Assembly (NCBI GenBank): GCA_902590705.1 | Contig: CACIXU010000006.1 | Span: forward strand, 1 to 64,000 | Source: an uncultured Bacteroidota bacterium | GTDB lineage: Bacteria > Bacteroidota > Bacteroidia > Flavobacteriales > Flavobacteriaceae | DNA: 64,000 bases | Direction of reading: 5' to 3' | In this document: positions 928-48,024 of the stretch, piece by piece | How the letters are laid out: each line of letters opens with the position of its first letter | How positions within the stretch are numbered: position 1 is the stretch's first letter | Notes under the pieces: model-generated | Seen by the model: the letters and a program-made list of their open reading frames with translations, nothing else | Databases searched by the model: none | Told to the model about the DNA's origin: nothing | Translations under genes and position numbers: made by a program

Positions 928-2472
928 CTAAGGTTTTAAATCTTTAAAAATCAGCTGGGCATTATTTTTTGAAAGGTCAAAAAAATTAGAATTGAAATTT
1001 TCAACCTTTTCACCGGCAACAATTAGATTTTTAAAAATTATACTTAGATCAGTTTTAGGGGTTTCAGGATAGTGCCTAAAAAAGGAAAACTTCTTTGGGA
1101 AGGTAATATCAAATGTACAATTTTCAATTATTACTTTTTGTATTTTCCCCAATTCAGAAATATTCCTATCTCTTTTTGTTATATAAAAATTCATTCCATT
1201 TTGTTTTCTATCAGGAAAACTTAATTCTGCATGATTATCTCTAAAAACTACATCCTGAACAATTGCTCCATCTCTCACATTTATTCCCATGACACGATCT
1301 GACTCAATTACAACATTATTCTCAAAAATAATATCTTGCATCTGGCTACAAAAAGTTTCAGTACCAATTTTTAATCCTGATTTTTTGGTTAGAAATACAT
1401 TGTCCCTAACAATGATATTTTCTGCATTTGGAACCTTACCAAGTGTACTTCCATATCCAGTACATTTTATTGCAATAGTATCATCCCCAGCCCATCCAAA
1501 ACAGCTTTCTATCAAAATATCCGATGAGCTATCTGGATCCCAACCATCCAAACTTCCAAGTAATTTATTTTCAATCGGATTATTAATCAATTTACAATGG
1601 CGAAAGCTAACAGATTGAGACTTAAGAATATGAGTATTCCAACGAGCTGAGTCTTTAAGTAAAACACCATTAATATTAATATTTTTAGAATTATAAATAA
1701 ATAATAATCGGATCTCCTTAATATTTTTTGCAATTTCGGCATGGGACACGGCTAATATCTGTGTACCATTTCCATCTAGAGTTCCTAGTCCTGATATTGA
1801 CAGGTTCTCAACATTTTTAATTAGTAAAAAACGATTAATCCCGGTCTCATCGTCTGATATATAGTGAGAAAGAGTACTATCATCTGCTAAAATTCGAGCA
1901 TTTTTTGCGAGATAAATTTGACTGTTACTTCTAAATTGAAGCGTAAAGGTTTTGTAAACACCGGGTGGGAAATAAAGTACTTTTCTGCTTCCAGAAATCT
2001 CATCTAAAGCCTTCTGAATTTTAATTGTTTCATTTTTATTTCCAGTATTATCTACCCCATAAGTATCGACAACATCAACCCTATTTTCGGGGATGAATTC
2101 AGGTTTTTCAAAAAGTAAAACAATGCGTTTTGTAAAATCTTGGTTTTGCTTAAATAAAATTACTACATACCCTAGGCGATTAAAAGAAAAAGATAAACTG
2201 TTTCCGGATTTGATTCCATTTAAATTATAACTCTTTGGAGAAATAGACCAATCAGTATTATTAAATTCAAAATCTTTTACTTTAATATTTATGTCAATTG
2301 AACTTCCTTTGTAGGGAATTCTAACAAATTTATACGCTGATAATCCAAGATTTAAGGGAATGTCATTTTGTTCATAAACTTCAACTCTACTTTTGTCAGC
2401 ATAAACCTCAAATGACTGGCCATTAGTTCTTGATATAAAACAAATGAGAATAAAAAAAGATAAAAATCGCAC
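928..2472 (-). CDS. GH28-like right-handed beta-helix glycosidase
   Basis: Secreted protein of the pectin-lyase-fold (GH28-like) group, likely acting on a polysaccharide in the periplasm or outside the cell. After a signal peptide (RFLSFFILICFISRTNGQ) comes a beta-sandwich-like stretch, then the helix entry VDVVDTYGVDNTGNKNE and the typical ALDE...VLYFPPGVY. The catalytic region has DGWDPDSSSD and GDDTIAIK, matching the Asp positions of GH28, but the family's GHG motif is not present; SGLKIGTE stands near where RIK would be expected. The open frame extends upstream into the neighbouring gene, so the true start is probably the GTG at 2472 or the TTG at 2478, a few bases after the stop of that gene. 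No ATG precedes the signal peptide. Substrate unknown. Confidence 0.7.
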   Translation of the reverse strand: MRFLSFFILICFISRTNGQSFEVYADKSRVEVYEQNDIPLNLGLSAYKFVRIPYKGSSIDINIKVKDFEFNNTDWSISPKSYNLNGIKSGNSLSFSFNRLGYVVILFKQNQDFTKRIVLLFEKPEFIPENRVDVVDTYGVDNTGNKNETIKIQKALDEISGSRKVLYFPPGVYKTFTLQFRSNSQIYLAKNARILADDSTLSHYISDDETGINRFLLIKNVENLSISGLGTLDGNGTQILAVSHAEIAKNIKEIRLLFIYNSKNININGVLLKDSARWNTHILKSQSVSFRHCKLINNPIENKLLGSLDGWDPDSSSDILIESCFGWAGDDTIAIKCTGYGSTLGKVPNAENIIVRDNVFLTKKSGLKIGTETFCSQMQDIIFENNVVIESDRVMGINVRDGAIVQDVVFRDNHAELSFPDRKQNGMNFYITKRDRNISELGKIQKVIIENCTFDITFPKKFSFFRHYPETPKTDLSIIFKNLIVAGEKVENFNSNFFDLSKNNAQLIFKDLKP

Positions 2473-2482
2473 AATCAAGAAT

Positions 2483-3031
2483 TTATTTAAATTTGAATTC
2501 TTTGTGATATAGTTTATCAACGATATTAGTAGGGGTACCAATATATTTATTAAAATAAACTTTTTCAACCTCGCGGTCACAGTCGTGAACTAATAAATGG
2601 CGAGTTTTAAGTTTTGAAGCTGAAAAAATACTTTGCATTCGACCGGGGACCTTGTCGTTATAACCTCTCGGGCCATCAACAAAAACAATATCCCAAATAG
2701 TTTTTTTGACATAGTCTGGAAGTCGCATTTGTAACTTTTTGTCTTGACCCAACAATTTCTTCCAATTTCTACGTCTAGTGGAATAATTCACCTTAGTGAT
2801 ATTAATTTCTGGAGAAATCTTTCTACTAAAACGTATCCACTTTCTTACATCTTCTAAAAAGAGTGTATTCCCATATTTGTTGAGTTTCATCCAAAGTTTG
2901 GAGTCTTTTCCAACACTAAAAATAAGTACGTTACCTGGTGAGTATTTCTGAATTAGAGATCCAAGATGTCTATATTCGGATACTGATCCATTTCCTGGAT
3001 TTAAGCTTACTAATTCTTCATATGGATCCAT
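2483..3031 (-). CDS. DUF579/glucuronoxylan O-methyltransferase-like protein
   Basis: 182-residue protein that resembles the plant DUF579 family (IRX15 and GXM, the xylan glucuronic acid 4-O-methyltransferases). Matching landmarks in order: NVLIFSVGKDSKLW (34-47), NTLFLEDV (55-62), VNYSTRR (81-87), WDIVFVDGPRGYNDKVPGRM (113-132) and LLVHDCDREVE (146-156). The family pattern WD.I.VDGP.GY..D.PGRM is the strongest link. By family knowledge it would transfer a methyl group from S-adenosylmethionine to a sugar acid, but the bacterial substrate is unknown. It has no signal peptide. It lies 36 bases after folC and just before the beta-helix enzyme, with which it may be translationally coupled. The similarity is recalled by eye and not searched. 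Confidence 0.6.
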   Translation of the reverse strand: MDPYEELVSLNPGNGSVSEYRHLGSLIQKYSPGNVLIFSVGKDSKLWMKLNKYGNTLFLEDVRKWIRFSRKISPEINITKVNYSTRRRNWKKLLGQDKKLQMRLPDYVKKTIWDIVFVDGPRGYNDKVPGRMQSIFSASKLKTRHLLVHDCDREVEKVYFNKYIGTPTNIVDKLYHKEFKFK

Positions 3032-3067: not shown

Positions 3068-4273
3068 TTAGAGTATCTCAGCTACAACAAAAGTGCTTCC
3101 GCCTACGTAGATTAAATCATCAGAACTAGCCATTGACTGAGCCTTTAACATTGCCTGAGCAACAGTTGGAAATGTTTTAAAATTTATATTTAACTTATTA
3201 GAAACTTTTTCTAAATCCGCAATTGGGAGTGCTCTTGGGATATTGGGGGCAGCAAAATAAAAAATTGCATTTTCAGGAAAGAGCTTTATTAATTTCTCAG
3301 CTTCCTTATCCTTAACAAAACCCAATACTAAATGAAGTTTATTATAAGATTGTGATTTAATTTGAGGAATTACATAATCCAAACCCTCTTGGTTGTGAGC
3401 AACATCTGCTATGGTTAAAGGATTAAGAGCAAGAATTTGCCAACGACCTTGAATACCTGTGTTCGAGATTACCTTCATCAAACCTAAATTAATAATTTTT
3501 GGATCTATTTTAAGTCTTAATAATGCAATTGAGGCAGTTTGAATATTTTTCTTTTGATAGCTCCCTTTGAGGTCTGATGAAAACCCAACAAATTTTTGCT
3601 GGTCTGCAAAAATAATTTGAGAATTCAGCATTTTTGCTTTTTCCATAAAAACTTCTTTGGTTTTTTCATGGGTTTCTCCAATCACTATTGGTGTTCTAGG
3701 TTTTATTATTCCAGCTTTTTCATTGGCAATTTCTGGTAAAGTATTTCCTAAAAATTGGGTATGGTCAAACCCAATATTAGTTATTATGGATAATTCAGGC
3801 AGAATAAGATTTGTGCCATCCAAGCGCCCCCCCATACCAACCTCAATGACGGCGTAATCAACTTTTTTATCAAAAAAATAACTAAACGCCAAGCCAACTG
3901 TCATTTCAAAAAAGGAAAGACAAGTAAGATCAATGTAATTAAGATTATTTTGAATAAATTTTACGATATAATGCTTTTCAATAAAAGCTCCGTTAATTTT
4001 AATTCGCTCTCTGAAATCTCTTAGATGAGGAGAAGTATATAAACCCACTCGATATCCAGCCTCTTGCAAAACTGATGCTATCATATGAGCAGTAGATCCT
4101 TTACCATTAGTCCCTGCGATATGAATAGTTTTTATTTTTTTTTCTGGAGAATTTAAATGTGAACTGAATGCCACCATTCTACTTAGGTCTGGACGGTAAG
4201 CTTGTTTTCCCTTTTGCTGATACATGGGAAGTTGAGAGAGCATCCATTGTAATGTCTTATCATAACTATTCAA
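3068..4273 (-). CDS. folC: folylpolyglutamate/dihydrofolate synthase
   Basis: Mur-ligase-family enzyme that adds glutamate to dihydropteroate and folates in the cytoplasm, using ATP. The 401-residue length is normal. The nucleotide-binding loop HIAGTNGKGSTAHM starts at residue 51, SPHLRDFRERIKI at 81, and VIEVGMGGRLDGTN follows near 142, with the family's C-terminal ADVAHNQEG segment. It starts one base after the TonB-like gene ends, so it is probably co-transcribed with the ExbB-ExbD-TonB-like genes although the functions differ. Confidence 0.95.
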   Translation of the reverse strand: MNSYDKTLQWMLSQLPMYQQKGKQAYRPDLSRMVAFSSHLNSPEKKIKTIHIAGTNGKGSTAHMIASVLQEAGYRVGLYTSPHLRDFRERIKINGAFIEKHYIVKFIQNNLNYIDLTCLSFFEMTVGLAFSYFFDKKVDYAVIEVGMGGRLDGTNLILPELSIITNIGFDHTQFLGNTLPEIANEKAGIIKPRTPIVIGETHEKTKEVFMEKAKMLNSQIIFADQQKFVGFSSDLKGSYQKKNIQTASIALLRLKIDPKIINLGLMKVISNTGIQGRWQILALNPLTIADVAHNQEGLDYVIPQIKSQSYNKLHLVLGFVKDKEAEKLIKLFPENAIFYFAAPNIPRALPIADLEKVSNKLNINFKTFPTVAQAMLKAQSMASSDDLIYVGGSTFVVAEIL

Positions 4274-34160: not shown

Positions 34161-34295
34161 ATTTGAATTATCCTCAACCACTGTAAATAAATGGATTAAC
34201 CTAACATTAATTCAATTAAATGTTTTCAAGACCATTTTTGATAACAGAGTAATTTTATTAGATTGTATCTTTCTAAACTCTATACTAATAAATAT

Positions 34296-37142
34296 ATGAG
34301 AATAAATCTATCACCAATATGCTTTATGGTCGTGCTATTTTTAATCAACTTTACCCATGCACAAAATGATTCCATTTATTGGCCTAAAATCAATAAGGAA
34401 TCCAAAACATGGACTCGATGGTGGTGGATGGGTAGTGCAGTCAATAAAAAAAATATTACCCGTTCATTAATCACTTTCGAAAAAGCAGGAGTCGGCGGTG
34501 TAGAAATAGAACCTATCTACGGAGTAAAAGGACAAGAGAAAAATTTTATTAATTTTTTAAGTCCATATTGGATTGAGATGCTAAACCATACTATAAGGGT
34601 CGCAGATAGCTTACAAATGGGTGTTGATTTGACACTTGGAACTGGTTGGCCTTGGGGTGGATCAAATGTAAAACCAGCAGATGCCGCCAAGCGTCTATTG
34701 GTTAGGAAAGTCAACCTAAAAAAGGGAACTCTTTTTTCCGAGAGAGTTTCTCCATTCGAAACTGGAACCTTGATATACCCCGACCAACTTGACATCAAGG
34801 TCTTTGATTCAAAAAAAGTTAGGCCAAGCAGAAAGTGGGGGTTTCGCGAAGTTGGTTCAGTCTGGCCAAAACTCATTGGGGTTTTTGCTTTTGACACCCA
34901 AAACAATTTTATAGATCTGACTAATAAAATTATTAATGAAAAAATTGAATGGGAGAACAAAGACAAGGACTTCGATCTGTTTTTTGTCTTTGAAGACCAA
35001 ACTAGGCAAAAAGTAAAGAGAGCTGCTCCAGGAGGGGAAGGTTGGGTTCTAGATCACTTTTCTATCAAGGCTTTAAAAAATTACCTACAACTTTTCAGTA
35101 GTGTTTTGGAAAAAGCAGATGGTAAGGTTCGGTCAGTTTTTAACGACAGCTATGAAGTATACAGAGCAGACTATACTAATAAATTTTTTGAGATTTTTGA
35201 ACTTTACCGCGGCTATGATCTGAGGCCCTACATGAATCGTCTTTTGGATAGAGATGATAACGAAATCAGCAATCGAATCAGAAGTGATTACAGAGAAACA
35301 TTGTCTGATTTATTGGTAAAAGGGTTCAATACCTTTTGGAATGAATGGGCGCAAAATAAAGGAGTAAAAACTAAATATCAAGCGCATGGTTCCCCGGGAA
35401 ATCTTATCGACCTTTATGCCTCAGCAGACATCCCTGAATGTGAAACCTTTGGATCTATGCCTTACGATATCAAAGGGTTTAGGAGGATAGAAGGAAATGG
35501 AAGTTCAGCGGATTACCCTCACAGGAATTTTCGAGCTGGAGATGCCGATGTGGCCATGATAAAATTTTCATCCTCTGCAGCACATTTGTCAGGTAAAAAA
35601 CAGGTTTCGGCCGAAACATTTACTTGGCTCAGAGAACATTTTAGAACTGCTTTATCTCAGTGCAAACCAGAGTTGGAAGATTTGTTTCTAAATGGTATTA
35701 ATCATGTCTTTTTACACGGATCTACCTATTCGCCGGAATCTGCCGAATGGCCGGGATGGAAGTTTTATGCTCCAGTGAATTTTAATGATTCTAACCCGAT
35801 TTGGGAAGATGCCCCCGCACTATTTGAATACATCTGCCGATCACAGTCACAATTACAACAGGGCCAGCACGACAACGATTTATTGGTCTATTGGCCTGTT
35901 CACGACAGTTGGGCAAAATTTAATCAGGGTAAGCTATTAGTACAGTTTGCTATTCATCGCCTCGATACTTGGTTGTCGGGAACTCCATTTTATGAAACAG
36001 TTCATCATTTAATAAAACAGGGCTATAGCATGGACTACGTATCGGATCGCTTTTTGGAAAAAATCAATGTTGAAAATGGGGTCATTCAACTACCGGGGGG
36101 AAATTACCGCTCAATCATTGTTCCTCCTTCCCAATACATACCCCTGAAAACTTTGAAAAAACTTGTTGATCTTCGAACCATGGGAGCATCGGTTGTCTTT
36201 TTGGGAACCCCCAAAAGTGTTCCAGGTTTTTTCGAGTATCAAAAAAGAGAGCAGGAACTTAAAGCTTTTGTCAAAGAAAAAATCAATAAAGTTTATTCCC
36301 TAAAAGAAATGGAAATCCCCCTTAAAAAAGCAGGAGTAATCAAGGAGAAATTAGTCCAAAATGGGCTTAAATTCATCCGAAGGAAAAATAGGGGTGAAAA
36401 AATCTACTATCTGGTAAATCATACATCCAAAAAAATTGAGGAATTTGTCTCCTTGGTCATTCCCAACAAAGAGGTTTTGATCTTGGACCCTCTAACTGGA
36501 AAAACAGGAAAAGCTATTACAGAGCACCAAACAGGGATCACCAAAGTAAAAATTTCGCTACCCTCTGGATCAAGCATCTTTCTCATAACCTCCGACAGAA
36601 TCAACACTCAAAAATGGTATTATTACAAGCCCTCAAAAAACTCCTACAAAATCACCGGTGACTGGGATTTTAAATTAATCAAAGGAGGGCCATATACTGA
36701 CTTTTCGAAAAAAACCAATTTATTGACCTCATGGACCCAATGGGGTGAAAAAATGGAAGCCTTTTCAGGTACTGCTCAATATGAAATCAAATTCAACAGA
36801 CCAACAGAACATAAAGGCGCTTGGCTATTGCAATTGGGAGATGTTCGTGAAAGTGCAAAAATCTGGTTAAATGACAAGTTCATTGGTCCATTATGGTCCT
36901 ACCCTTATCAGCTCACCATTAAAAGTTTGAAAAAGGGGAAAAACAGCCTTCGTATTCAAGTGACTAACCTGGGGGCTAATCGAATAAAAGCAAAGGAAGC
37001 AAGAGGTGAGGAATGGAAATCCTTTTATAATATTAATATGGTTGGGCTAGATTATAAACCTTTTGATACGTCAAAATGGGAACTTATAGAGGCAGGAATT
37101 TTGGAAGATCCTATATTAATTCCCTTAGAGATTTCTGAATAG
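34296..37142 (+). CDS. GH106-like alpha-L-rhamnosidase
   Basis: Secreted glycoside hydrolase expected to release terminal L-rhamnose. From the ATG at 34296 it has 948 residues: a signal peptide (MRINLSPICFMVVLFLINF, ending HAQ), the GH106 opening WTRWWWMGSAVNKKNITRSL and GVGGVEIEPIYG, then the large catalytic part and a C-terminal galactose-binding-type beta-sandwich (LLQLGDVRESAKIWLND and KSLKKGKNSLRIQVTNLG). An earlier in-frame TTG at 34263 adds 11 residues before the signal peptide. First gene of the rhamnose island, followed by the sulfatases on the same strand. Confidence 0.85.
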   Translation: MRINLSPICFMVVLFLINFTHAQNDSIYWPKINKESKTWTRWWWMGSAVNKKNITRSLITFEKAGVGGVEIEPIYGVKGQEKNFINFLSPYWIEMLNHTIRVADSLQMGVDLTLGTGWPWGGSNVKPADAAKRLLVRKVNLKKGTLFSERVSPFETGTLIYPDQLDIKVFDSKKVRPSRKWGFREVGSVWPKLIGVFAFDTQNNFIDLTNKIINEKIEWENKDKDFDLFFVFEDQTRQKVKRAAPGGEGWVLDHFSIKALKNYLQLFSSVLEKADGKVRSVFNDSYEVYRADYTNKFFEIFELYRGYDLRPYMNRLLDRDDNEISNRIRSDYRETLSDLLVKGFNTFWNEWAQNKGVKTKYQAHGSPGNLIDLYASADIPECETFGSMPYDIKGFRRIEGNGSSADYPHRNFRAGDADVAMIKFSSSAAHLSGKKQVSAETFTWLREHFRTALSQCKPELEDLFLNGINHVFLHGSTYSPESAEWPGWKFYAPVNFNDSNPIWEDAPALFEYICRSQSQLQQGQHDNDLLVYWPVHDSWAKFNQGKLLVQFAIHRLDTWLSGTPFYETVHHLIKQGYSMDYVSDRFLEKINVENGVIQLPGGNYRSIIVPPSQYIPLKTLKKLVDLRTMGASVVFLGTPKSVPGFFEYQKREQELKAFVKEKINKVYSLKEMEIPLKKAGVIKEKLVQNGLKFIRRKNRGEKIYYLVNHTSKKIEEFVSLVIPNKEVLILDPLTGKTGKAITEHQTGITKVKISLPSGSSIFLITSDRINTQKWYYYKPSKNSYKITGDWDFKLIKGGPYTDFSKKTNLLTSWTQWGEKMEAFSGTAQYEIKFNRPTEHKGAWLLQLGDVRESAKIWLNDKFIGPLWSYPYQLTIKSLKKGKNSLRIQVTNLGANRIKAKEARGEEWKSFYNINMVGLDYKPFDTSKWELIEAGILEDPILIPLEISE

Positions 37143-37224
37143 AAATATATACCAATTGAACAGGAAAATAATTGGACATTAAACTTTATCTAAATTTATT
37201 AAATTTAAAAAAACAATTACAAAT

Positions 37225-38640
37225 ATGTATAATTCATTAATTATAAGTTTATGGTTTTTAATCTTTTGCTCTTGTGGGAGCCCAAAAAAACAAAAGCTTG
37301 AGGAAGAAAGTCCACCTAATATCATTTTTATCCTTTCCGATGACCAAGCATGGGGAGATTACAGCTTTATGGGACATCCCTATATAAAAACTCCAAATAT
37401 TGATCAACTTGCAAGTGAATCTGCGACCTATTCAAGAGGCTATGTTACAAGTCCACTTTGTGGACCATCTTTAGCAAGTATAATTACTGGTAAATATGCC
37501 TTTGAACATAATCAAACTGGAAATGATGCTGGTAACTCGAGACGAGATGCTAGTTTATGGATTGAAAATGGTTACAAAAAAGTGAAAAAGAGAAAATCCA
37601 ATAATTATCTCTACAGTAAGGAACGAAATGATAAGTTTGATATTATAAAGGCTAATTTTTATCAAAATAAACTTTTAACTGATTATCTTGGAGTTAAAGG
37701 ATATAAATCATTTCAATCGGGAAAATGGTGGTTAGGTTCTTGGGAAGAAGGGAAATTTGATGGAGGAATGACACATGGGGATTATAAAAGAAAGGGAAGA
37801 CATGGAGATGAAGGGCTAAAAATTGGTCGAGAAGGATTAGAACCAATATTTAATTTTATAGAAAAAACTAATGAAAATGGTAGTCCATTTTTTGTGTGGT
37901 ATGCCCCTTTTTTACCTCATACTCCTCATAACCCGCCCCAAGAATTACTTGACAAATATATTAATTTGGCGCCTAATGAAAGTATAGCTAAGTATTGGGC
38001 CATGTGTGAATGGTTGGATAAAACTGTTGGTGAAATGATGAACTATTTGAAAGAAAAATCTTTAGATAAAAATACTCTAATAGTTTATACAACAGATAAT
38101 GGCTGGATCCAATCTGATAAAAGAAATCGATATGCGCCTAGATCAAAAAGAGCACCACATGAAGGCGGAATTAGAACGCCTATTATGTTTAAGCTTCCTG
38201 GTGTAATTAAACCTAAGATGGATAAATCTTCATTGGTAAGTAATATTGACCTAGTACCTACAGTTCTTGACATATTAAATATTTCTTTTGATAGCTTGCC
38301 AGGAATAAGTATTATGAAAAAAGAAAAGATAGAAAATAGAGAAACGATTTTTGTAGAATGTTACAATCATGACATTTTAAATGTTGAAAAACCAACTGAG
38401 ACAATTTTATATAAAGTTGCCTTAAATAAAAAATGGAAGTTAATGGTTCCTAATCAAGATTTAGTTATTAGAGATTTTACAGATCCTCAAGAAAATTACT
38501 ATGGATTTTACTCCAACCAAATTCAACTGTTTGACTTAGATGAAGACCCTAATGAGAAAGTTAATTTAGCTTTGAAGTACCCTGAAATAGTTGTAAAAAT
38601 GAATCAACAAATTGATGAGTGGTGGCAACCAAAGAATTAA
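37225..38640 (+). CDS. sulfatase with non-canonical CxPxL motif
   Basis: Lipoprotein-type sulfatase (alkaline phosphatase fold) of 471 residues, likely removing sulfate esters from an algal sugar. Leader MYNSLIISLWFLIFCSC; metal-binding SDDQAWGD at 38-45; the formylglycine site is LCGPSLASIITG, with Cys79 but Leu83 where canonical CxPxR sulfatases have Arg; C-terminal TTDNGW and APHEGGIRTP. Similar CRPSLAT-type motifs are recalled in other Planctomycetota and Bacteroidota sulfatases, so this may be a real subfamily. Formylglycine formation without the Arg is unproven. Lies between the GH106 gene and rhaM. Confidence 0.85.
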   Translation: MYNSLIISLWFLIFCSCGSPKKQKLEEESPPNIIFILSDDQAWGDYSFMGHPYIKTPNIDQLASESATYSRGYVTSPLCGPSLASIITGKYAFEHNQTGNDAGNSRRDASLWIENGYKKVKKRKSNNYLYSKERNDKFDIIKANFYQNKLLTDYLGVKGYKSFQSGKWWLGSWEEGKFDGGMTHGDYKRKGRHGDEGLKIGREGLEPIFNFIEKTNENGSPFFVWYAPFLPHTPHNPPQELLDKYINLAPNESIAKYWAMCEWLDKTVGEMMNYLKEKSLDKNTLIVYTTDNGWIQSDKRNRYAPRSKRAPHEGGIRTPIMFKLPGVIKPKMDKSSLVSNIDLVPTVLDILNISFDSLPGISIMKKEKIENRETIFVECYNHDILNVEKPTETILYKVALNKKWKLMVPNQDLVIRDFTDPQENYYGFYSNQIQLFDLDEDPNEKVNLALKYPEIVVKMNQQIDEWWQPKN

Positions 38641-38664
38641 ATTTGAGATTAAAATAAAATCACA

Positions 38665-38973
38665 TTGAATAGACTTGCGTTTAAAATGTTTTTAAAACCT
38701 AATTCATTAGAGGAATACAAAAAACGTCATAGTGAAATTTGGCCTGAACTAAAGCTACTCCTTAAAGAAGCAGGAGTTGGCGCATATCATATTTACCATG
38801 ATCCTCAAACTAACTGTCTTTTTGCTTATCAAGAAACTAATGGAAGTGACTCTCAATCTTTAAGTGAAAATCCCATCGTTAAAAAATGGTGGGAATACAT
38901 GAGCGATCTAATGGAAACCAATCCCGACAATTCACCAAAACAATTAAATCTAAATAAAGTATTCTCTCTATGA
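38665..38973 (+). CDS. rhaM: L-rhamnose mutarotase
   Basis: Converts the alpha and beta anomers of L-rhamnose so that the isomerase gets its substrate. The 102 residues match the family well: NRLAFKMFLKPNSLEEYKK, then RHSEIWPELKLLLKEAGV, YHIYHDPQTNCLFAYQE and the C-terminal KKWWEYMSDLMETNPDNSP. The start is a TTG at 38665; no ATG precedes the conserved N-terminus. The stop overlaps the start of the second sulfatase by four bases (ATGA). Confidence 0.93.
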   Translation: MNRLAFKMFLKPNSLEEYKKRHSEIWPELKLLLKEAGVGAYHIYHDPQTNCLFAYQETNGSDSQSLSENPIVKKWWEYMSDLMETNPDNSPKQLNLNKVFSL

Positions 38974-40367
38974 TGAACAGAATGATCAAACTTGTCTTTT
39001 TATTCGTTTTTTTTTGGTCATGCGATGAAAAAACTGAACCCCAAAACCCTCCAAATATCATAGTAATTGTTACCGATGACCAAAGATGGGATGCCATTGG
39101 GTACGCTGGAAACCGAATAATTAAAACACCTCAACAAGACCAATTAGCAAAGGAAGGAACTTATTTCAAAAATGCTTTTGTAACCACACCGATATGTGCT
39201 GCAAGTCGAGCTAGTATTTTTACAGGGCTATATGAGCGAAAGCATAAATTTACTTTTGGAGGTAAAACCCTGGACCCAATTTACAATCAGGAAAATTATG
39301 CCAATAAACTGCAAAAAAAAGGATATAAAACTGGATTTTTTGGTAAACTTGGAATTAAAAACGATGGAAACCTAACAGGATCTTTCTCTGAGTACGAGGT
39401 ATACGATAGGAATAATAAATTCAAAGATTCCCGAGGATATTATTACAAAACTATTGAAAAAGATACAGTGCACCTTACTCGATACACTGGTTACAAAGCT
39501 CTAAACTTTATAAAAAATACAAAGGAAAACGAACCTTTTTGTTTATCTATTAGCTTCAGCGCTCCCCATGCTCATGATGGTGCTTGGGAGGGGATTCAAA
39601 AACAATATTTCTGGCAAGAAGAAGTAGAAAATTATTATAAAGATGTCGATATCCCAGGGCCTAAAAATGCCTCCGATAAACAATTTAATGTTCTGCCAAA
39701 AGAGGTAAGGGAAGGATTTAATAGAACTCGTTGGTATTGGCGATATGATACCCCCGAACGTTATCAAGAAAGTCTTAAAGGATATTACAAAATGATCAGT
39801 GGGGTGGACAATGAACTAGGAAAAATAAGAAAGATGCTCAAGGCAAAAGAAATTGAAGATAATACGATCATTATTTGGATGGGAGACAATGGCTATTTTC
39901 TAGGTGAGAGACAAATGGCAGGCAAATGGTTAATGTATGACAACTCGGTCAGGGTACCATTGATCATTTTTGATCCACGTATAAACCAACACTATGATGT
40001 TGATGACATGGTCGCCAATGTAGATTTAGCGTCTACTATTTTAGATTTTGCTGGAATTGATGCTAAACTAGAAACACATGGAAACTCTTTGACACCTTAT
40101 GTAAAGACCGGTCATTCTCCCTACAAGAGAGAGGAACTCTTGATAGAGCATTTATGGGAATTTGAACCCATCCCTCCCAGTGAGGGTATAAGAACCGAAA
40201 AATGGAAATTCATGAGGTACAGAGACATAGAAGCCAAAGACGAACTCTATGATCTGACAACCGATCCAGAGGAACTCAAGAACCTAGCGGGTAATCCCGA
40301 CTATGCAAATGTCGTAATAGAAATGAGGGAAAAGCTTGAAAGAACAATTGCAAAGTACGCCCAATAA
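38970..40367 (+). CDS. sulfatase
   Basis: Sulfatase of 465 residues with a lipoprotein leader (KLVFLFVFFWSC). It has the divalent-metal pair in VTDDQRWDAIGYAGN, the canonical formylglycine site CAASR (Cys76 to Arg80) followed by ASIFTGLY, and ends like other sulfatases (DELYDLTTDPEELKNLA). It overlaps rhaM by 4 bases, so it is translated with it. Together with the GH106 and the other sulfatase it suggests a sulfated rhamnoside as substrate. The exact sulfate position cannot be read from sequence. Confidence 0.92.
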   Translation: MMNRMIKLVFLFVFFWSCDEKTEPQNPPNIIVIVTDDQRWDAIGYAGNRIIKTPQQDQLAKEGTYFKNAFVTTPICAASRASIFTGLYERKHKFTFGGKTLDPIYNQENYANKLQKKGYKTGFFGKLGIKNDGNLTGSFSEYEVYDRNNKFKDSRGYYYKTIEKDTVHLTRYTGYKALNFIKNTKENEPFCLSISFSAPHAHDGAWEGIQKQYFWQEEVENYYKDVDIPGPKNASDKQFNVLPKEVREGFNRTRWYWRYDTPERYQESLKGYYKMISGVDNELGKIRKMLKAKEIEDNTIIIWMGDNGYFLGERQMAGKWLMYDNSVRVPLIIFDPRINQHYDVDDMVANVDLASTILDFAGIDAKLETHGNSLTPYVKTGHSPYKREELLIEHLWEFEPIPPSEGIRTEKWKFMRYRDIEAKDELYDLTTDPEELKNLAGNPDYANVVIEMREKLERTIAKYAQ

Positions 40368-40368
40368 A

Positions 40369-43110
40369 TCAGTTCGCAACAAAAGAAAAATTATATTTTC
40401 CCGACCCCAAAAGCAAAAGTGTTTTTTGCTTATTCTCCTCCTTACTCAAAATTTTGGAGATCAATTTAGGATTTTCTAACTTCCAACTACCATCCGAGGG
40501 TTTATTAAGAATTACATCGGAAGAAGTGTTGGCAGGTATCTCTATGGTCAATTGTAGTTTTCCATTTTTGCGTGACCAAGCCACTGCAATTTTCCCATAA
40601 CTGGATTTAAAGCTTCCATCAATATTTACAAAGTTTTTATCAAATAAAGGTTTAATTGTGAAACGCTTAAAGCCCGGGTAATTCTCATTGATTTTAAGTC
40701 CCATTAAATTAGCATACATCCATTCACCAATAGCACCATACGCATAATGGTTAAATGAGTTCATACTTGGGTATTGAAAACTTCCATCTGGCTTAATCCC
40801 ATTCCAACGCTCCCATATGGTAGTGGCCCCCTTTGTGACAGGGTATAACCATGATGGGTATTCTTTTCTCAATAATAATTCAATAGCTTTTGCGTGTTTT
40901 CCGTTATCTGATAAAACATGACACAAAAAAGGTGTACCCAAAAAACCAGTTGTAAGATGACCGTAATCATTTATGTTATCAATTAGTCTCTCAACTGCTA
41001 TTTCTCTATTTTTCTTAGACAGTAAATCAAATTGTAATGCAAGAACATATGAAGTTTGAGAATCTGAGATTAGCATACCATTTTTTGTTACAAATTCATC
41101 ATTAAAAGCCTTTAAAATTTTTTGATATAATTCAGAATAAACTTTTAAATCATCTTTATAATCCAAAACCTTTGCTGCTTTAATTAATAATTTAGTTGAA
41201 TAACAATAGAAAGCTTGCGCAATGAGTTTTTTACTTGTTACTGCAGATACCCCACTATTGTCATCATCTCGAGAAAAAAACAACCAGTCCCCCCAGTGAT
41301 CTCTCTTTTGAAAAAGGTTGTTAATAGAGTTTTTTGTCATAAAACCAATCCACTTTTTCATACTTAAATATTGTCTCTCCAAAGTTTCTTTATCTCCATA
41401 AATAAGAAAAGAATTCCATGGAATGATTGTGGCAGCGTCAGCCCATCCAGTCCGTCCGAAGTTTCCCTCTAATCCCTCTGAATCGTTGGGTCCTAAATAA
41501 TTATTGTGAGGAACAACTCCAGGAACTGCTCCATCAGATCGCTGATCGTATGTTAAATCAATCAACCATTTATCAAAAAAGTTTTTTACATCCATATTAA
41601 AACCAGCCGTGTTAAAAAACGCTTGGGCATCACCGGTCCAACCAAGTCTCTCATCCCTTTGAGGGCAATCGGTAGGAACATCCAAGAAGTTACCTCTTTG
41701 ACCCCATTGGATATTTTGCTGGAGCTGATTAATTAGTTTATTAGAAGTAGTCAATTGACCAGTAAACTCCATATCTGAGTATATCGCAACGGCTTTAAAA
41801 TCTTTAATATTTATTTTATCTATTCCTTCAATTTTCAAATATCTGAATCCCTGAAATGTAAAAACAGGCTCATAAATTTGATCTTCATCTCCATTTAAAA
41901 TAAAAGTATTTTTTTGTTCTGCTTTTCTAAGATTAGTAGTGTAAAATTCTCCTTTTTTATCAAGTACTTCAGCATGATACAATTTTACCTCTGTTCCTTT
42001 AGGGAGGGCTGACTTAAATTTGACCCAACCTACAAGGTTTTGTCCAAAATCAATAACTTTATCACCTGAGGGTGTAATAATAAGCTCCTTGGCAGATAAA
42101 ACCTCTCGTTTCTTTATCATTTCATTTCTGGTGTAATCTATAAAACCCTTATATCTGCTCGCAGTTTTAGCTTTTTTTGAATTTTTATTTTTATGTCCAG
42201 GGAATGACCATTTTGAATTTTTTAAATTCATATCAACACTTTCTCCATTATAGATTGATGAACTTAAAATCGGTCCAAAGTTATAACTCCAATTCTTTTC
42301 ATCAATTATACTTTCTTTTCTCCCATCTTCATATGAGATAATTAATTCTGAAATGAATGAGGTTCTTTCCCCATAATCGACTATTCTGTTTTTTCTGTTT
42401 TGTCTAAAATTCCTATACCAGCCATCTGCTAGAATAACTCCTATTCTGTTTTCACCTGTTAAAAGCATTTCCATTACGTCATATGCTTGATATTGAATCC
42501 TATTTGAATAAGACGTCCACCCTGGAGTAAGTATAGCATCACCAATTCTTTTGCCATTAATATGTGCTTCATAAACACCCCTAGAAGTAATATATAAGTT
42601 TGCTGAAATAATTTTACTATCTACTCTAAAATCATTAATAAAATAGGGGATTTTTGGAGAAGTCATGTCCTCATTATTTACAGTAATCCAATTAGATTTC
42701 CAATTCTGGTTATCCATTAGTCCTGTTTTCCATGATGAAACTTTACTCTGACTTGATCTTTTGGATTTATTGGTCCAGACTTTGACTGTCCAAAAGTATT
42801 GAGTATCATAAGCGAGTTCTTTTCCTAAGTAATTAACATAGACTGATTCATCGGAAGACACTTTTCCAGAGTCCCAAACAAGACTATTTTTTGAAAAAAT
42901 CTCATCAGTAGCGACGAAAATTTGGTAGTGCGTTTGAACTACATCATAGTCCTCAGATTTAATAATCCATGAAAAATCTGGATTTTTATTATCCAATCCC
43001 AAAGGAGAAATAAGCTTATCGACTTCTAAATTTGTTATTGTAGTTTTTTGGGCATTAACAGAAAAGAAGCATATTAACAGTGTTAGGGTTGTAAAAAGAA
43101 AACGTCTCAT
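40369..43110 (-). CDS. GH78 alpha-L-rhamnosidase
   Basis: Secreted alpha-L-rhamnosidase. From the ATG at 43110 there is a signal peptide (MRRFLFTTLTLLICFFSVNAQ), an N-terminal beta-sandwich, then the alpha/alpha barrel with the GH78 catalytic segment DVPTDCPQRDERLGWTGDAQ and downstream GATTIWERWNGIKPDG, both diagnostic. About 913 residues. An in-frame start at 43143 would put 11 residues before the signal peptide. Strand changes here: this gene converges with the second sulfatase (1-base gap) and begins the leftward half of the island; a 114-base gap separates it from the kinase. Confidence 0.93.
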   Translation of the reverse strand: MRRFLFTTLTLLICFFSVNAQKTTITNLEVDKLISPLGLDNKNPDFSWIIKSEDYDVVQTHYQIFVATDEIFSKNSLVWDSGKVSSDESVYVNYLGKELAYDTQYFWTVKVWTNKSKRSSQSKVSSWKTGLMDNQNWKSNWITVNNEDMTSPKIPYFINDFRVDSKIISANLYITSRGVYEAHINGKRIGDAILTPGWTSYSNRIQYQAYDVMEMLLTGENRIGVILADGWYRNFRQNRKNRIVDYGERTSFISELIISYEDGRKESIIDEKNWSYNFGPILSSSIYNGESVDMNLKNSKWSFPGHKNKNSKKAKTASRYKGFIDYTRNEMIKKREVLSAKELIITPSGDKVIDFGQNLVGWVKFKSALPKGTEVKLYHAEVLDKKGEFYTTNLRKAEQKNTFILNGDEDQIYEPVFTFQGFRYLKIEGIDKINIKDFKAVAIYSDMEFTGQLTTSNKLINQLQQNIQWGQRGNFLDVPTDCPQRDERLGWTGDAQAFFNTAGFNMDVKNFFDKWLIDLTYDQRSDGAVPGVVPHNNYLGPNDSEGLEGNFGRTGWADAATIIPWNSFLIYGDKETLERQYLSMKKWIGFMTKNSINNLFQKRDHWGDWLFFSRDDDNSGVSAVTSKKLIAQAFYCYSTKLLIKAAKVLDYKDDLKVYSELYQKILKAFNDEFVTKNGMLISDSQTSYVLALQFDLLSKKNREIAVERLIDNINDYGHLTTGFLGTPFLCHVLSDNGKHAKAIELLLRKEYPSWLYPVTKGATTIWERWNGIKPDGSFQYPSMNSFNHYAYGAIGEWMYANLMGLKINENYPGFKRFTIKPLFDKNFVNIDGSFKSSYGKIAVAWSRKNGKLQLTIEIPANTSSDVILNKPSDGSWKLENPKLISKILSKEENKQKTLLLLGSGKYNFSFVAN

Positions 43111-43160
43111 AAAATTATTATTAGAATTAATTGTTTTGGTCAATTTTTTGCTTAATATAA

Positions 43161-43203
43161 TAATTAAATTCTAATTTAATTATCAGCTAACCAGCTGGAT
43201 AAT
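43161..43203. repeat. two adjacent inverted repeats between kinase and GH78
   Basis: TAATTAAATT-CT-AATTTAATTA (43161-43182) is a perfect inverted repeat of ten bases each side. It is followed directly by a hairpin with stem ATTAT-CAGCT and AGCTG-G-ATAAT and loop AACC (43179-43203). They lie between the end of the kinase gene and the GH78 start, and may be an operator, a processing site or a weak terminator. Confidence 0.45.
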
Positions 43204-43224
43204 AGATAAAATTTTTAAATTCAA

Positions 43225-44532
43225 TTACTTTTTACTTAACAACATTGAAGCACCCAGTGCACAGGCATATGAAGCGGGCTTAGCTTTTATTTTTTGATTC
43301 GGAAATTGTATTTTCAACAGTGCTAAAAAAATACTGTTATCTGAAAAGCCCCCATCAATATAAATTATGTTGGGAAGGGTTTCACAAATGATATCAATTT
43401 TGAGCTTAAGCAAATCCATTAACTCATTTATCAATTGATGATACGCAATCTCAAAACTAGAAAAGTTCAACTGGTCATACACTGGAGCATTTGAATTATC
43501 TAAATACCTCCAACGAAAATGGTTCTTACTATTGATAATGTATTCATGGTATAATGCTTCATTAAATTCTAGACTTCGATGATGAAATTTTGGAACCCGA
43601 AAATATTTGGTCAATATTTTAACCTTCATTCTATGTTCTTCCCCTAAAAATAATCGAGAAGTTTTAACCGGGCTACCATCAATTTTCATATATGCTGTAG
43701 CTCCGGAGGCAATTTGTTTTTCTTCAAAAATAGAAGTACTTGAAAAAGGGTTGAAGTTAATACACCAGGTACCGGTGGAAAGCAATAAAAAAGATTCCTT
43801 AGCCTTTAATAAATAAGTCAAGAGAGCCGAGGAACTATCGTGAATACCTATCCCAAAAGTTATTCTTCTTCCGCCTATTTCTTTAGTTATGGTTTTACTC
43901 GTATGAACGATTTTTGGAAAAAGTTGGTCAATGCCCTCAGATTTTATCCAAGAATGATAATCATTTTTTTCAAAGTCCCAAAGATCGGTATGACATCCTA
44001 TACTAGTAAATTCAGAATGCAACTCACCAGTGAAAACATAACTTAAATACTGAGGAAGATGAAGAGTATATCTGATTTTTTTAAAAAGATGAGGACGTTT
44101 GTATTTAATCCAATAAAGTTGCTTACCAGAATTGAGCATTCCCAGATTCCTAGAACCTGTTTGAACTGAAAAGGTGGATTCAGGGCCATATTTAATATAA
44201 AATTCTTTGAAGGTATTCTCGTCTATGGGTTTGTGATAATCATATACAGGTGTTATCACTTTTTTATTTTTATCCAAGTGAACTAAAGTTGCACCAAATC
44301 CTGAAAAACTAACTTTGTCAATTTTAAATTCATTGGAGGCCATTATAAAATCAAAACTTTCTCTGAGCCATATAATAATTCCCTCAATATTTTCCGCCAT
44401 ATGACCGTCCTCATCTAAAACCTTCGGAATGGTGACTTTTTCCCGTTTAAGAATTTTATCTTCTGAATTAAATACAAAGTATTTTTGATTGGTTTTACCA
44501 ACATCAAAAACTAGACAACACTTTGTTTCCAT
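43225..44532 (-). CDS. FGGY-family kinase, probable L-rhamnulokinase
   Basis: Phosphorylates L-rhamnulose to the 1-phosphate, inferred from context. The 435 residues have the FGGY fold: LVFDVGKTNQKYFVF at the N-terminus, SFSGFGATL-type strand, LLSTGTWCINF in the middle, and the ATP-binding IYIDGGFSDNSIFL near the C-terminus. It is the only kinase in the rhamnose cluster and lies directly after the isomerase, with its ATG sharing one base with the isomerase stop (TAATG). The family includes kinases for fuculose and xylulose as well, so the assignment rests on neighbours. Confidence 0.8.
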   Translation of the reverse strand: METKCCLVFDVGKTNQKYFVFNSEDKILKREKVTIPKVLDEDGHMAENIEGIIIWLRESFDFIMASNEFKIDKVSFSGFGATLVHLDKNKKVITPVYDYHKPIDENTFKEFYIKYGPESTFSVQTGSRNLGMLNSGKQLYWIKYKRPHLFKKIRYTLHLPQYLSYVFTGELHSEFTSIGCHTDLWDFEKNDYHSWIKSEGIDQLFPKIVHTSKTITKEIGGRRITFGIGIHDSSSALLTYLLKAKESFLLLSTGTWCINFNPFSSTSIFEEKQIASGATAYMKIDGSPVKTSRLFLGEEHRMKVKILTKYFRVPKFHHRSLEFNEALYHEYIINSKNHFRWRYLDNSNAPVYDQLNFSSFEIAYHQLINELMDLLKLKIDIICETLPNIIYIDGGFSDNSIFLALLKIQFPNQKIKAKPASYACALGASMLLSKK

Positions 44533-45806
44533 TACAGTCCTGTTGATTTGGAATCAACTCCTCGAGCCTCAATAAGTTTTTGACGGATTTTCAATTCTCG
44601 GTAAGCTTTAAGAGGATCAATTACCCCCCCAGATGCATAATAAGATTCAACTACCAATGCCCTTACATCAGTTCTAAATGCATCTTGGAGCATCGATTGA
44701 CATGCAGCAACATCATTTTTTTGCTGAAAGGTTTTTAATTCATTATAATCGACTAATAAAGCTTTAGCGAAAGCAATTTTGATGGTTTCAACTGATTGAA
44801 GTAGATCTTCCATCGGATCTTTGAGATTATGGCTAGCATCTATCATCCAAGATAAATCTGGATTAGAAGTTTCCTCCATTCCTTGAACTAACTCACAAAA
44901 AATTAAAAACAACTGATATGGTTTTAAGGAGCCTACCGTAAGGTCATCATCTCCATATTTACTTTCATTAAAATGGAAGCCGCCTAATTTATTTAAATGC
45001 ATTAAAATAGCTACAATTTGTTCAATATTAGTGTTGGGTAGATGATGCCCTAAATCTACTAGTGTTGTGGCCTGCTCACCTAATTCAGATGATATAAGAT
45101 GGGATGTACCCCAGTCAGGAATTACCATAGAATAGAAATTAGGTTCGTAAGGTTTGTATTCAATAAGTAATTTCCAATCAGCTGGTAAATGAGCGTAAAT
45201 ATCTTGGAGTGATTCCAAAGTACGCTGAAAAGCACCTCTAAAACTTTGTTGTCCTGCAAAGGAAGTTCCATCAGCCAACCAAACTGTCAAGGCTTTTGAC
45301 CCTAATTTTACTCCATGGTCAATTACTTCCTTATTGTGTTGAATTGCTTTTTTTCTTACTGCTTTATCAATATGGCTTAGTGAACCAAACTTATAAGAAT
45401 GAGTACCTCCAGATTGATCCTGGAATGTGTTGGAATTAACAGCGTCAAAATTTATATCTAACTCGTGTGCAAGGGATTTCATTTTTTTGTAATCCTCTGG
45501 GATGTCCCAAGGAATATGCAAGCTTATTGCTCCACTGGATCGATTTAATGCATGAAGTAATCCAACATCTTTAATTTTTTCCTCAAGTGTATTGGGCTCT
45601 CCACCCAGAGGGAATCTGCCAAATCGGGTACCCCCAGTACCTAATGCCCAACTGGGAATTGCAATCTGAAAATCACTCAATTTATTTATAACGTTATTCA
45701 AATCAAGATTTTTTTTAGATAAATTTTCACCTAAAAAATTCAGGTTCTGCTTATGAGTTGCCAAATAAGACTCGTTAAAAGACGCTATTTTTTCTTTATT
45801 TAGCAT
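44532..45806 (-). CDS. rhaI: L-rhamnose isomerase (RhaI type)
   Basis: Converts L-rhamnose to L-rhamnulose. The 424-residue TIM-barrel protein resembles the Pseudomonas/Bacillus RhaI type rather than E. coli RhaA, with IPSWALGTGGTRFGRFP near the N-terminus, SLHIPWDIP, LIEYKPYEPNFY, LVDLGHHLPNTNIEQ and GGFHFNESKYGDDDLTVG; the Glu, His and Asp positions in these would bind the metal. It lies 14 bases behind the aldolase gene and overlaps the kinase by one base, so the three form one unit. Confidence 0.9.
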   Translation of the reverse strand: MLNKEKIASFNESYLATHKQNLNFLGENLSKKNLDLNNVINKLSDFQIAIPSWALGTGGTRFGRFPLGGEPNTLEEKIKDVGLLHALNRSSGAISLHIPWDIPEDYKKMKSLAHELDINFDAVNSNTFQDQSGGTHSYKFGSLSHIDKAVRKKAIQHNKEVIDHGVKLGSKALTVWLADGTSFAGQQSFRGAFQRTLESLQDIYAHLPADWKLLIEYKPYEPNFYSMVIPDWGTSHLISSELGEQATTLVDLGHHLPNTNIEQIVAILMHLNKLGGFHFNESKYGDDDLTVGSLKPYQLFLIFCELVQGMEETSNPDLSWMIDASHNLKDPMEDLLQSVETIKIAFAKALLVDYNELKTFQQKNDVAACQSMLQDAFRTDVRALVVESYYASGGVIDPLKAYRELKIRQKLIEARGVDSKSTGL

Positions 45807-45820
45807 GATTAATTCATAAT

Positions 45821-47920
45821 TTACCTAACAAAAGCATTGGGAACTCCCCCGTCAACATTAATGATATTACCAGTGCTCTTATCTAATACTGCCAAGAATG
45901 CAAAAACCCCATTAGCAATGTCTTCCGGTCGAATAATTTTATTCAAAATATTTCGTTTGGCATAAAATTCGGGTAATTGCGCTACAGTGATTCCATAAGC
46001 TTTTGCTCTACCTTCTGCCCAATCTCCCTCCCATATTTTACTTCCAATAATCACCCCATCAGGGTTTACAGTGTTGACCCTAATTTGGTCGGGAGCTAAT
46101 TCGGTAGCCAACAATCGCGACATATGCATTTGAGCAGCTTTTGCAGTTCCATAACCGGCATTATTAGGACCAGAAACTAATCCATTTTTACTTACAATAT
46201 TTATAATATTTCCTTCTAAATTTTGCTTTCTCATGATTTTTGCAGCGGCCCTAGACAATAAAAACTGTCCTTTGACCAATACATCCTGAAGCAAATCCCA
46301 ATCGGTCTCAGTAGTGTCTTCAACAGGTTTTGAAATAGCCAAACCTGCGCTATGTACAACAATATCCAATCCGCCAAACTGAAGTGACGCCTTTTGAACT
46401 GCTGCTTCAATACTCTCTGCGCTTGTTACATCGCATTGACAAGCAATTGCTTCATCAGGGCTATATTGAGCTGTGGCCTCTTTAAGGTAATCTTCTGAAA
46501 TATCAGTAAAAACTACAGTTGCTCCTTCAGAAATTAATTTATCAGCTATAGCTCTGCCAATTCCTCCTCCTGAGCCAGTAATTAATGCTACTTTTCTAGA
46601 CAAAGGTTTTTCTTTTGGTTGGCGCTGGAGTTTGGCTTCTTCTAACAACCAATATTCGATATCAAAAGCTTCTTGACGGGGAAGAGAGGTATATTTCGAA
46701 ATAGCCTCAGCCCCTCGCATGACATTCACTGCATTGATATAAAACTCACTTGCTACTCTAGCAGTTTGTTTGTTTTTTGCAAAAGTAAACATCCCTACTC
46801 CAGGGTAGAGTATCACAACTGGATTAGCATCTCTTATGGCAGGGCTATCGGACCGCTTACAAGAGTCATAGTATTCTTGATAATCCTTTCGATATTGCTC
46901 AAAAGAAGGGGTAATTTTTTTCAAAACTGCAGAAGCATCCATAAGGTCATCCTCTGGATCTAATGCTAAGATAAGTGGCTTAATTTTTGTTCTTAAAAAG
47001 TGATCTGGACAAGATGTTCCCATTGGAGCCAAGCGGTTCAAATCATTGCTATTTATAAATTCCAGTACCTTGGTATCATCCGTAAAATGTCCAATCATAT
47101 TTTGCTCAGAGGAGCATAGCCCTCTTAAAATTGGAGCAAGTATTGAAGCCTGTGACTCTCGTTTGGTCTTTTCTAGGCTATTCATTTTTTGTCCTCCAAA
47201 AACAGCTCCTCTCTCAGTAATTTTATCTTCTATGTATTGAGAAGCTACTTCAATTACTTCCAAGCTATTGATATATGACTCGTAAGAAGTATCTCCCCAA
47301 GTAAAAACGCCATGGCTTCCTAAAACAATTCCTCGAATACCAGGGTTTTCATTTAAACAGTTTTCTAATTGTAATCCCAAATCAAAACCGGGTCTTTGCC
47401 ACGGGACCCAGCCCATGGTATCCCCCCAAATTTCTTTGGTTATTTTTTCACTATCCTCTGCAGCTGCAATGGCGATTAAAGCATCTGGATGCAGGTGATC
47501 TATATGTTTGAAAGGAAGTAAACCGTGCAAAGGGGTATCAATAGAGGGGGCTCTACTATCTAAATCATAGATACAGTGATTGAAAAGTGCAACCATCTCA
47601 TCCTCGTAGTCCAAACCACGGTAAACTTTTTTAAGGTCGTGTAGTCTTTGGTTATATAAACCAGCAATACCATTTCTTTTAAGCGTTCCAATATCTCCCC
47701 CAGAACCTTTAATCCACATCACCTCAACTTCTTTATTTGTAATAGGATCTTTTTCGATAGTTTTACAGCTGGTATTTCCTCCACCAAAATTTGTGATTCT
47801 AAGATCAGCCCCTAATATATTTGAGCGATATAAAAAAAGAGCCACTTGGTCATCTCCTAGGGCATCCTCCTTTTTTTTATCCCACAAATAGTTAACGTGA
47901 GTGAATTTATTTTTTCCCAT
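45821..47920 (-). CDS. rhaEW: bifunctional rhamnulose-1-phosphate aldolase/lactaldehyde dehydrogenase
   Basis: Two-domain enzyme. The N-terminal half is a class II aldolase (FGGGNTSCK, the metal-binding HIDHLHPDA near residue 140, and GIVLGSHGVFTW) that splits L-rhamnulose-1-phosphate to DHAP and L-lactaldehyde. The C-terminal half, from about residue 444, is a short-chain dehydrogenase with VALITGSGGGIGRAIADKL and catalytic GYGTAKAAQ, which would oxidise lactaldehyde to lactate. The fusion is known from other Bacteroidota and Chloroflexi-type rhamnose loci. Start set at the ATG at 47920 (699 residues, MGKNKFTHVNYLWD); the frame continues 7 codons upstream without a better start. Confidence 0.92.
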   Translation of the reverse strand: MGKNKFTHVNYLWDKKKEDALGDDQVALFLYRSNILGADLRITNFGGGNTSCKTIEKDPITNKEVEVMWIKGSGGDIGTLKRNGIAGLYNQRLHDLKKVYRGLDYEDEMVALFNHCIYDLDSRAPSIDTPLHGLLPFKHIDHLHPDALIAIAAAEDSEKITKEIWGDTMGWVPWQRPGFDLGLQLENCLNENPGIRGIVLGSHGVFTWGDTSYESYINSLEVIEVASQYIEDKITERGAVFGGQKMNSLEKTKRESQASILAPILRGLCSSEQNMIGHFTDDTKVLEFINSNDLNRLAPMGTSCPDHFLRTKIKPLILALDPEDDLMDASAVLKKITPSFEQYRKDYQEYYDSCKRSDSPAIRDANPVVILYPGVGMFTFAKNKQTARVASEFYINAVNVMRGAEAISKYTSLPRQEAFDIEYWLLEEAKLQRQPKEKPLSRKVALITGSGGGIGRAIADKLISEGATVVFTDISEDYLKEATAQYSPDEAIACQCDVTSAESIEAAVQKASLQFGGLDIVVHSAGLAISKPVEDTTETDWDLLQDVLVKGQFLLSRAAAKIMRKQNLEGNIINIVSKNGLVSGPNNAGYGTAKAAQMHMSRLLATELAPDQIRVNTVNPDGVIIGSKIWEGDWAEGRAKAYGITVAQLPEFYAKRNILNKIIRPEDIANGVFAFLAVLDKSTGNIINVDGGVPNAFVR

Positions 47921-48024
47921 TTGTAATTTATTGAATGTCAATTTAAAGTTTTTAAGGAAAATATCCTATGAGTTACGGAATTTAAAAAATCAATTATAAA
48001 CCACAAAAATTACTATCTTTTTAA

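Follow-up and report, generated by a model that had tools for sequence, protein, structure and literature searches.

The gene at positions 2483..3031 of the window, by which we mean the whole 64,000-nucleotide stretch of flavobacterial DNA analysed here, encodes a member of the DUF579 (IRX15/GXM) family, and its product is predicted to be a glycan sugar O-methyltransferase. DUF579, discussed in the literature as a plant cell-wall family, is not restricted to plants, and members are also encoded by tailed phages and by bacteria other than this one. We consider it likely that the protein is a cytosolic SAM-dependent O-methyltransferase of a surface-glycan sugar, and the bacterial and phage members of the family most likely decorate surface sugars.

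Gene and family membership

The open reading frame is real, and it carries the series of motifs, in the order of plant IRX15/GXM proteins, that was quoted for it in the preliminary description.

2483..3031, minus strand: class I SAM-dependent methyltransferase of the DUF579/IRX15-GXM family (PF21729), 182 aa, assigned from Pfam, AlphaFold and fold neighbours

The assignment to the plant family made in that description is borne out by the profile search that it had proposed. PF21729 (IRX15_IRX15L_GXM) matches the 182-aa protein with 111.1 bits (E = 6e-32) against a curated Pfam gathering cut-off of 27.8 bits, the match covers nearly the whole domain, and no other Pfam family, and hence no better methyltransferase family, matches the protein at E <= 0.1. 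The plant-derived NCBIfam domain TIGR01627 (A_thal_3515) scores 105.7 bits (E = 2.9e-30), which is under its strict cut-off of 149.85, and the sole other NCBIfam match is to RlmH (E = 0.07). The match to the plant profile is split into two parts, and about 18 intervening profile positions remain unmatched.

Only 22 residues precede the profile match. There is no long hydrophobic stretch among them, and in the structural model described below the N-terminal region forms a helix at residues 3-10, followed by the domain helix at 17-30. An N-terminal transmembrane anchor, which is a Golgi trait of plant GXM proteins, was not seen in this region, and because no such anchor is apparent, the protein is presumably cytosolic and not a Golgi protein.

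Two other explanations for the gene were considered and rejected. A chance resemblance of motifs is ruled out by the 111-bit profile score together with seven syntenic orthologs, while contamination of the bin is ruled out by the ordinary flavobacterial genes that flank the gene, by its recurrence at the same site in other assemblies and by a GC content close to that of the window (0.33 for the gene, 0.34 for the window). The gene is single-copy in its own genome.

Predicted fold and conserved residues

A structure prediction had also been suggested, and AlphaFold2, run on an alignment of the relatives, returned a model of high confidence (pLDDT 95.8, pTM 0.92) in which the order of elements is that of a class I SAM methyltransferase. 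The model has a Rossmann-like fold, a Gly motif after strand 1 and an acidic residue that ends strand 2, and we are confident in the class I SAM-methyltransferase fold as predicted. The 182 residues leave little beyond the catalytic domain in this model.

When 30 bacterial and viral relatives are aligned, 18 columns are invariant, and these include G41, E60, W113, D114, D119, P121, G123, G130, R131, D150, R153 and E156. Four short motifs stand out:

2900..2926, minus strand: motif I 'LIFSVGKDS', residues 36-44, following strand 1 (34-38 in the model), with G41 invariant; the putative SAM-binding loop, as judged from the class I fold
2846..2860, minus strand: 'FLEDV', residues 58-62, at the end of strand 2, with E60 invariant
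2663..2695, minus strand: 'WDIVFVDGPRG', residues 113-123, strand 4, with W113, D114, D119, P121 and G123 invariant
2564..2587, minus strand: 'HDCDREVE', residues 149-156, after strand 5, with D150, R153 and E156 invariant

Little or no variation is seen from bacteria to phages at G41 and D43 (in the putative SAM loop), E60, D119 and D150. In the model, E60 ends strand 2, D119 lies after strand 4 and D150 lies after strand 5; in COMT-like enzymes, the ligands of the SAM ribose and of the metal are found at the ends of strands 2, 4 and 5. E60 would be expected to hold the SAM ribose, and, judging from position only, D119 would be expected to serve as a metal or substrate ligand and D150 as a second metal ligand.

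Comparisons of the model with solved structures point to the same class. The best PDB matches in Foldseek are methyltransferases, and a search of BFVD returned general methyltransferases only. The top row of a VIA-align comparison is MeT1 (Z 14.6, rmsd 3.1, 158 aligned residues, 13% identity). COMT (Z about 13), MycF (Z 13.1) and several tRNA-modifying rows, all tRNA methyltransferases, follow within about 1.5 of it; since these rows are nearly tied, the comparison supports the class and not the substrate. The closest solved folds include metal-dependent O-methyltransferases, and two of the enzymes, MeT1 and MycF, act on sugars. Searching the PDB by sequence gave no solved relative, and the weak matches that it produced are due to chance.

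Locus and distribution

Scanning bacterial and archaeal genomes yielded seven close relatives (L003-L009), with 68-91% identity. They come from assemblies of Flavobacteriaceae or Bacteroidetes, most of which have names that indicate a marine origin, and in all seven the methyltransferase gene is preceded by exbB-exbD-tonB-like genes and folC, the last of which provides a fixed anchor for the locus.

3068..4273, minus strand: folC-like Mur-ligase family gene, upstream of the methyltransferase gene (Mur_ligase_M and Mur_ligase_C matches); order kept in L003-L009

The gene is under purifying selection: pairwise dN/dS is about 0.03-0.11 for the pairs that gave a dS value, the majority of pairs being saturated at silent sites. 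Its distribution is sparse: a survey of the bacterial family found it in 1 of 149 genomes, that one being its own, a survey of the phylum Bacteroidota found it in 7 of 395, and four genomes of the same genus are without it. Given this rarity and the congeners that lack the gene, it is a patchy gene that has been gained or lost at one site, where its GH28-like neighbour persists without it. Five of the relatives have a tRNA-Val(tac) gene downstream of the locus (L004:10197-10272, L005:8606-8681, L006:8609-8684, L007:4971-5046 and L009:5516-5591), possibly marking a site of gene turnover; no tRNA was seen near the methyltransferase gene in the window.

Relatives in other bacteria and in phages

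More distant bacterial members are found in the company of glycan genes. A plasmid of Priestia megaterium (NZ_CP109861.1) carries a homolog that shows 42% identity across 90% of the query, scores 159.8 bits with TIGR01627 (above the cut-off of 149.85) and is annotated as a 'TIGR01627 domain-containing protein'. The surrounding cluster includes galU, a GT-D glycosyltransferase, a polysaccharide pyruvyl transferase, a galactosyltransferase-related gene and a UDP-glucose/GDP-mannose dehydrogenase. Two other Bacteroidota homologs have a group 1 glycosyltransferase gene nearby, and a further one adjoins genes for an FkbM methyltransferase and a sulfotransferase.

Viral contigs gave no match when scanned with the window protein alone; when an alignment was used instead, 44 loci were found, and many of these encode one identical protein. 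Those sampled bear tailed-phage genes (terminase, UvsX-like recombinase, single-strand DNA binding protein and baseplate wedge), and the neighbours of the viral members include GT8, GT25 and GT29-like (sialyltransferase-like) transferases, cytidylyltransferases and other methyltransferases. Moreover, in four loci DUF579 lies inside larger proteins of 446-1286 aa, where its partners are GT8 (a weak match in the case of L046), Stealth/Caps_synth-like, GT25, GT34 and RXYLT1/GT47-like domains:

L046:7188-8528: DUF579-glycosyltransferase fusion
L069:6690-10550: DUF579-glycosyltransferase fusion, which appears to hold two DUF579 copies
L074:6255-9221: DUF579-glycosyltransferase fusion
L075:6570-9293: DUF579-glycosyltransferase fusion

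The strongest indication that the family acts on glycans in bacteria and phages comes from these fusions. In plants, GlcA is added to xylan by the GUX enzymes; these also belong to GT8, but that family is broad. Five viral contigs (L047, L048, L050, L057 and L058) share a conserved island in one gene order, with glycosyltransferases, DUF579, a CMP-sugar-synthetase-like gene and an HpcH/HpaI-aldolase-like gene.

In a tree of bacterial and viral members only, rooted at the midpoint, the phage member L032 groups with the Bacteroidota set that contains the window (99/99), although its branch is long and we are unsure of the placement. Three viral members and the window protein, used as queries, found no match in cultured phage genomes, and seven members found none in PHROGs.

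Proposed function

The reading that we favour is that a small soluble protein, most likely acting in the cytoplasm, would use SAM to methylate a sugar hydroxyl of a growing surface polysaccharide or of its lipid-linked repeat. The first candidate acceptor would be the 4-OH of glucuronic acid, and a divalent metal would probably be required, held by the conserved D119 and D150 as in COMT-like O-methyltransferases; we infer both the metal dependence and the glycan acceptor.

This assignment to glycan assembly in the cytosol draws on the activities of plant members, on the presence of 4-O-methylglucuronic acid in bacteria and on a dehydrogenase of the same genome. In plants, methylation of GlcA at O-4 requires GXM1-3 on xylan and AGM1/2 on arabinogalactan (PMC6508755), and the poplar GXMs are active on GlcA-bearing xylooligomers and inactive on free GlcA or UDP-GlcA (PMC3921138). 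Among bacteria, 4-O-methylglucuronic acid occurs, for example, in the exopolysaccharide of Bradyrhizobium elkanii (PMC4881576). Contig C8 of the same genome as the window encodes two nucleotide-sugar dehydrogenases, one of which is nearest, among equivalogs, to TuaD (UDP-glucose 6-dehydrogenase), with 298 bits against a cut-off of 700 for an ORF that runs off the contig end, and lies beside a UpxY-type antiterminator in a polysaccharide-like region. A supply of UDP-GlcA is thus plausible in this genome, as it is in the Priestia cluster. As a counterpoint, the methyltransferase gene itself stands alone after folC, in the window and in its orthologs, outside any polysaccharide cluster. The proposal in the preliminary description that the enzyme acts on a bacterial surface glycan gains indirect support from the Priestia cluster, the viral glycosyltransferase fusions and the dehydrogenase.

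Specificity for O-4 of GlcA, carried over by analogy from the plant biochemistry, is a tentative assignment, with a little under an even chance of being right. There is also a considerable, if lesser, chance that the enzyme applies GXM chemistry with a different specificity, to another uronic acid or to a neutral or amino sugar. The stretch of about 18 unmatched profile positions implies a difference in a loop with a possible influence on specificity, the phage homologs lie among varied sugar genes (sialyltransferase-like and cytidylyltransferase), and chlorophytes that make no xylan have orthologs too (PMC5902652), in line with a family that is older or broader than xylan. However, the members of known activity in the literature cited here all methylate GlcA at O-4, and the plausible supply of UDP-GlcA also argues for that acceptor.

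Perhaps the protein instead resembles IRX15 and IRX15L, family members for which no enzymatic activity is known (PMC6508755), and, without methyltransferase activity of its own, takes part in glycan synthesis as a partner or a scaffold. We regard this as improbable, considering that the five putative SAM, metal and substrate positions listed above are kept in bacteria and phages alike, and that a protein of this size has little room for anything outside the catalytic domain. An active sugar O-methyltransferase is accordingly the reading that we retain.

The GH28-like neighbour

The preliminary description also placed the methyltransferase beside a GH28-like beta-helix enzyme. The identity of this neighbour holds:

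928..2580, minus strand: GH28-like beta-helix protein, immediately after the methyltransferase gene; PF00295 Glyco_hydro_28, 42.7 bits, cut-off 22.9

The protein is probably secreted, and because the mechanical start overlaps the methyltransferase gene, translation probably begins further downstream. Its best NCBIfam model is the PglB polygalacturonase, with 114.8 bits against a cut-off of 600. Elsewhere in the window, at 34263-49431, inspection of the ORFs suggests a rhamnose and sulfated-glycan utilisation cluster, with large glycosidases, two sulfatase-like genes and RhaB-, RhaI- and aldolase-like genes.

Although family and fold stood up, the tie between the two genes did not. We reject a functional pairing on the evidence of the congeners: in three of the four same-genus genomes without the methyltransferase (the folC site was read in three), folC is followed directly by the GH28-like gene. 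Since these genomes keep the GH28-like gene without the methyltransferase, the neighbour is incidental. It is thus very improbable that the two enzymes together degrade a methylated plant or algal polysaccharide, as their adjacency on the same strand in the window, L003 and L004 and the apparent utilisation cluster might suggest, given those congeners, the presence of the methyltransferase without a GH28-like gene in L005-L007 and L009, and the fact that methyl addition is no known step of degradation.

Novelty and implications

Bacterial DUF579 members have already been named by automatic annotation, so that their kind is known. A literature search, with subscription papers mostly outside its reach, found no description of bacterial or phage members, which is weak evidence of novelty. 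These members bear on the origin of the plant xylan-methylating enzyme, and they suggest that phages and bacteria have the methyl capping of sugars as a common trait. One could go further and suppose that DUF579 is mainly a family of microbial and phage glycan methylation, alone or fused to GT8, GT25 or GT34, which caps surface sugars, and that the plant enzymes derive from that pool. We consider this broader view speculative and rather unlikely to hold in full. If it were true, uronic acids or other surface sugars would be capped, perhaps altering phage receptors, and the xylan and arabinogalactan methyltransferases of green plants would have come from a microbial and phage pool. The small soluble or glycosyltransferase-fused members would lend themselves to biochemical and crystallographic work, in a family for which sequence searches find no solved structure.

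Comparison with known systems

MeT1, the mycobacterial methylmannose polysaccharide 1-O-methyltransferase, MycF and COMT have a fold like that of the window protein (Z about 13-14.6 over about 155 residues), with 9-17% identity only and no sequence match, and the shared fold does not show function. Both MeT1, whose substrates are mannosides (PMC9883506), and MycF, which acts on a macrolide sugar, are O-methyltransferases of sugars. The Priestia homolog is a relative by sequence, sharing 42% identity; it differs in its polysaccharide-cluster setting, and its own function is a predicted one. AGM1/AGM2 (DUF579 clade III) share the family and indicate that it serves GlcA on more than xylan (PMC6508755); they are plant Golgi proteins, unlike the window protein, and the likeness is at the level of the family. 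Finally, the plant glucuronoxylan 4-O-methyltransferases GXM1-3/GXMT (DUF579 clade I) differ from the window protein, which has no apparent N-terminal anchor, leaves about 18 profile positions unmatched and falls below the TIGR01627 cut-off, and they have in common with it the PF21729 domain, at 111 bits.
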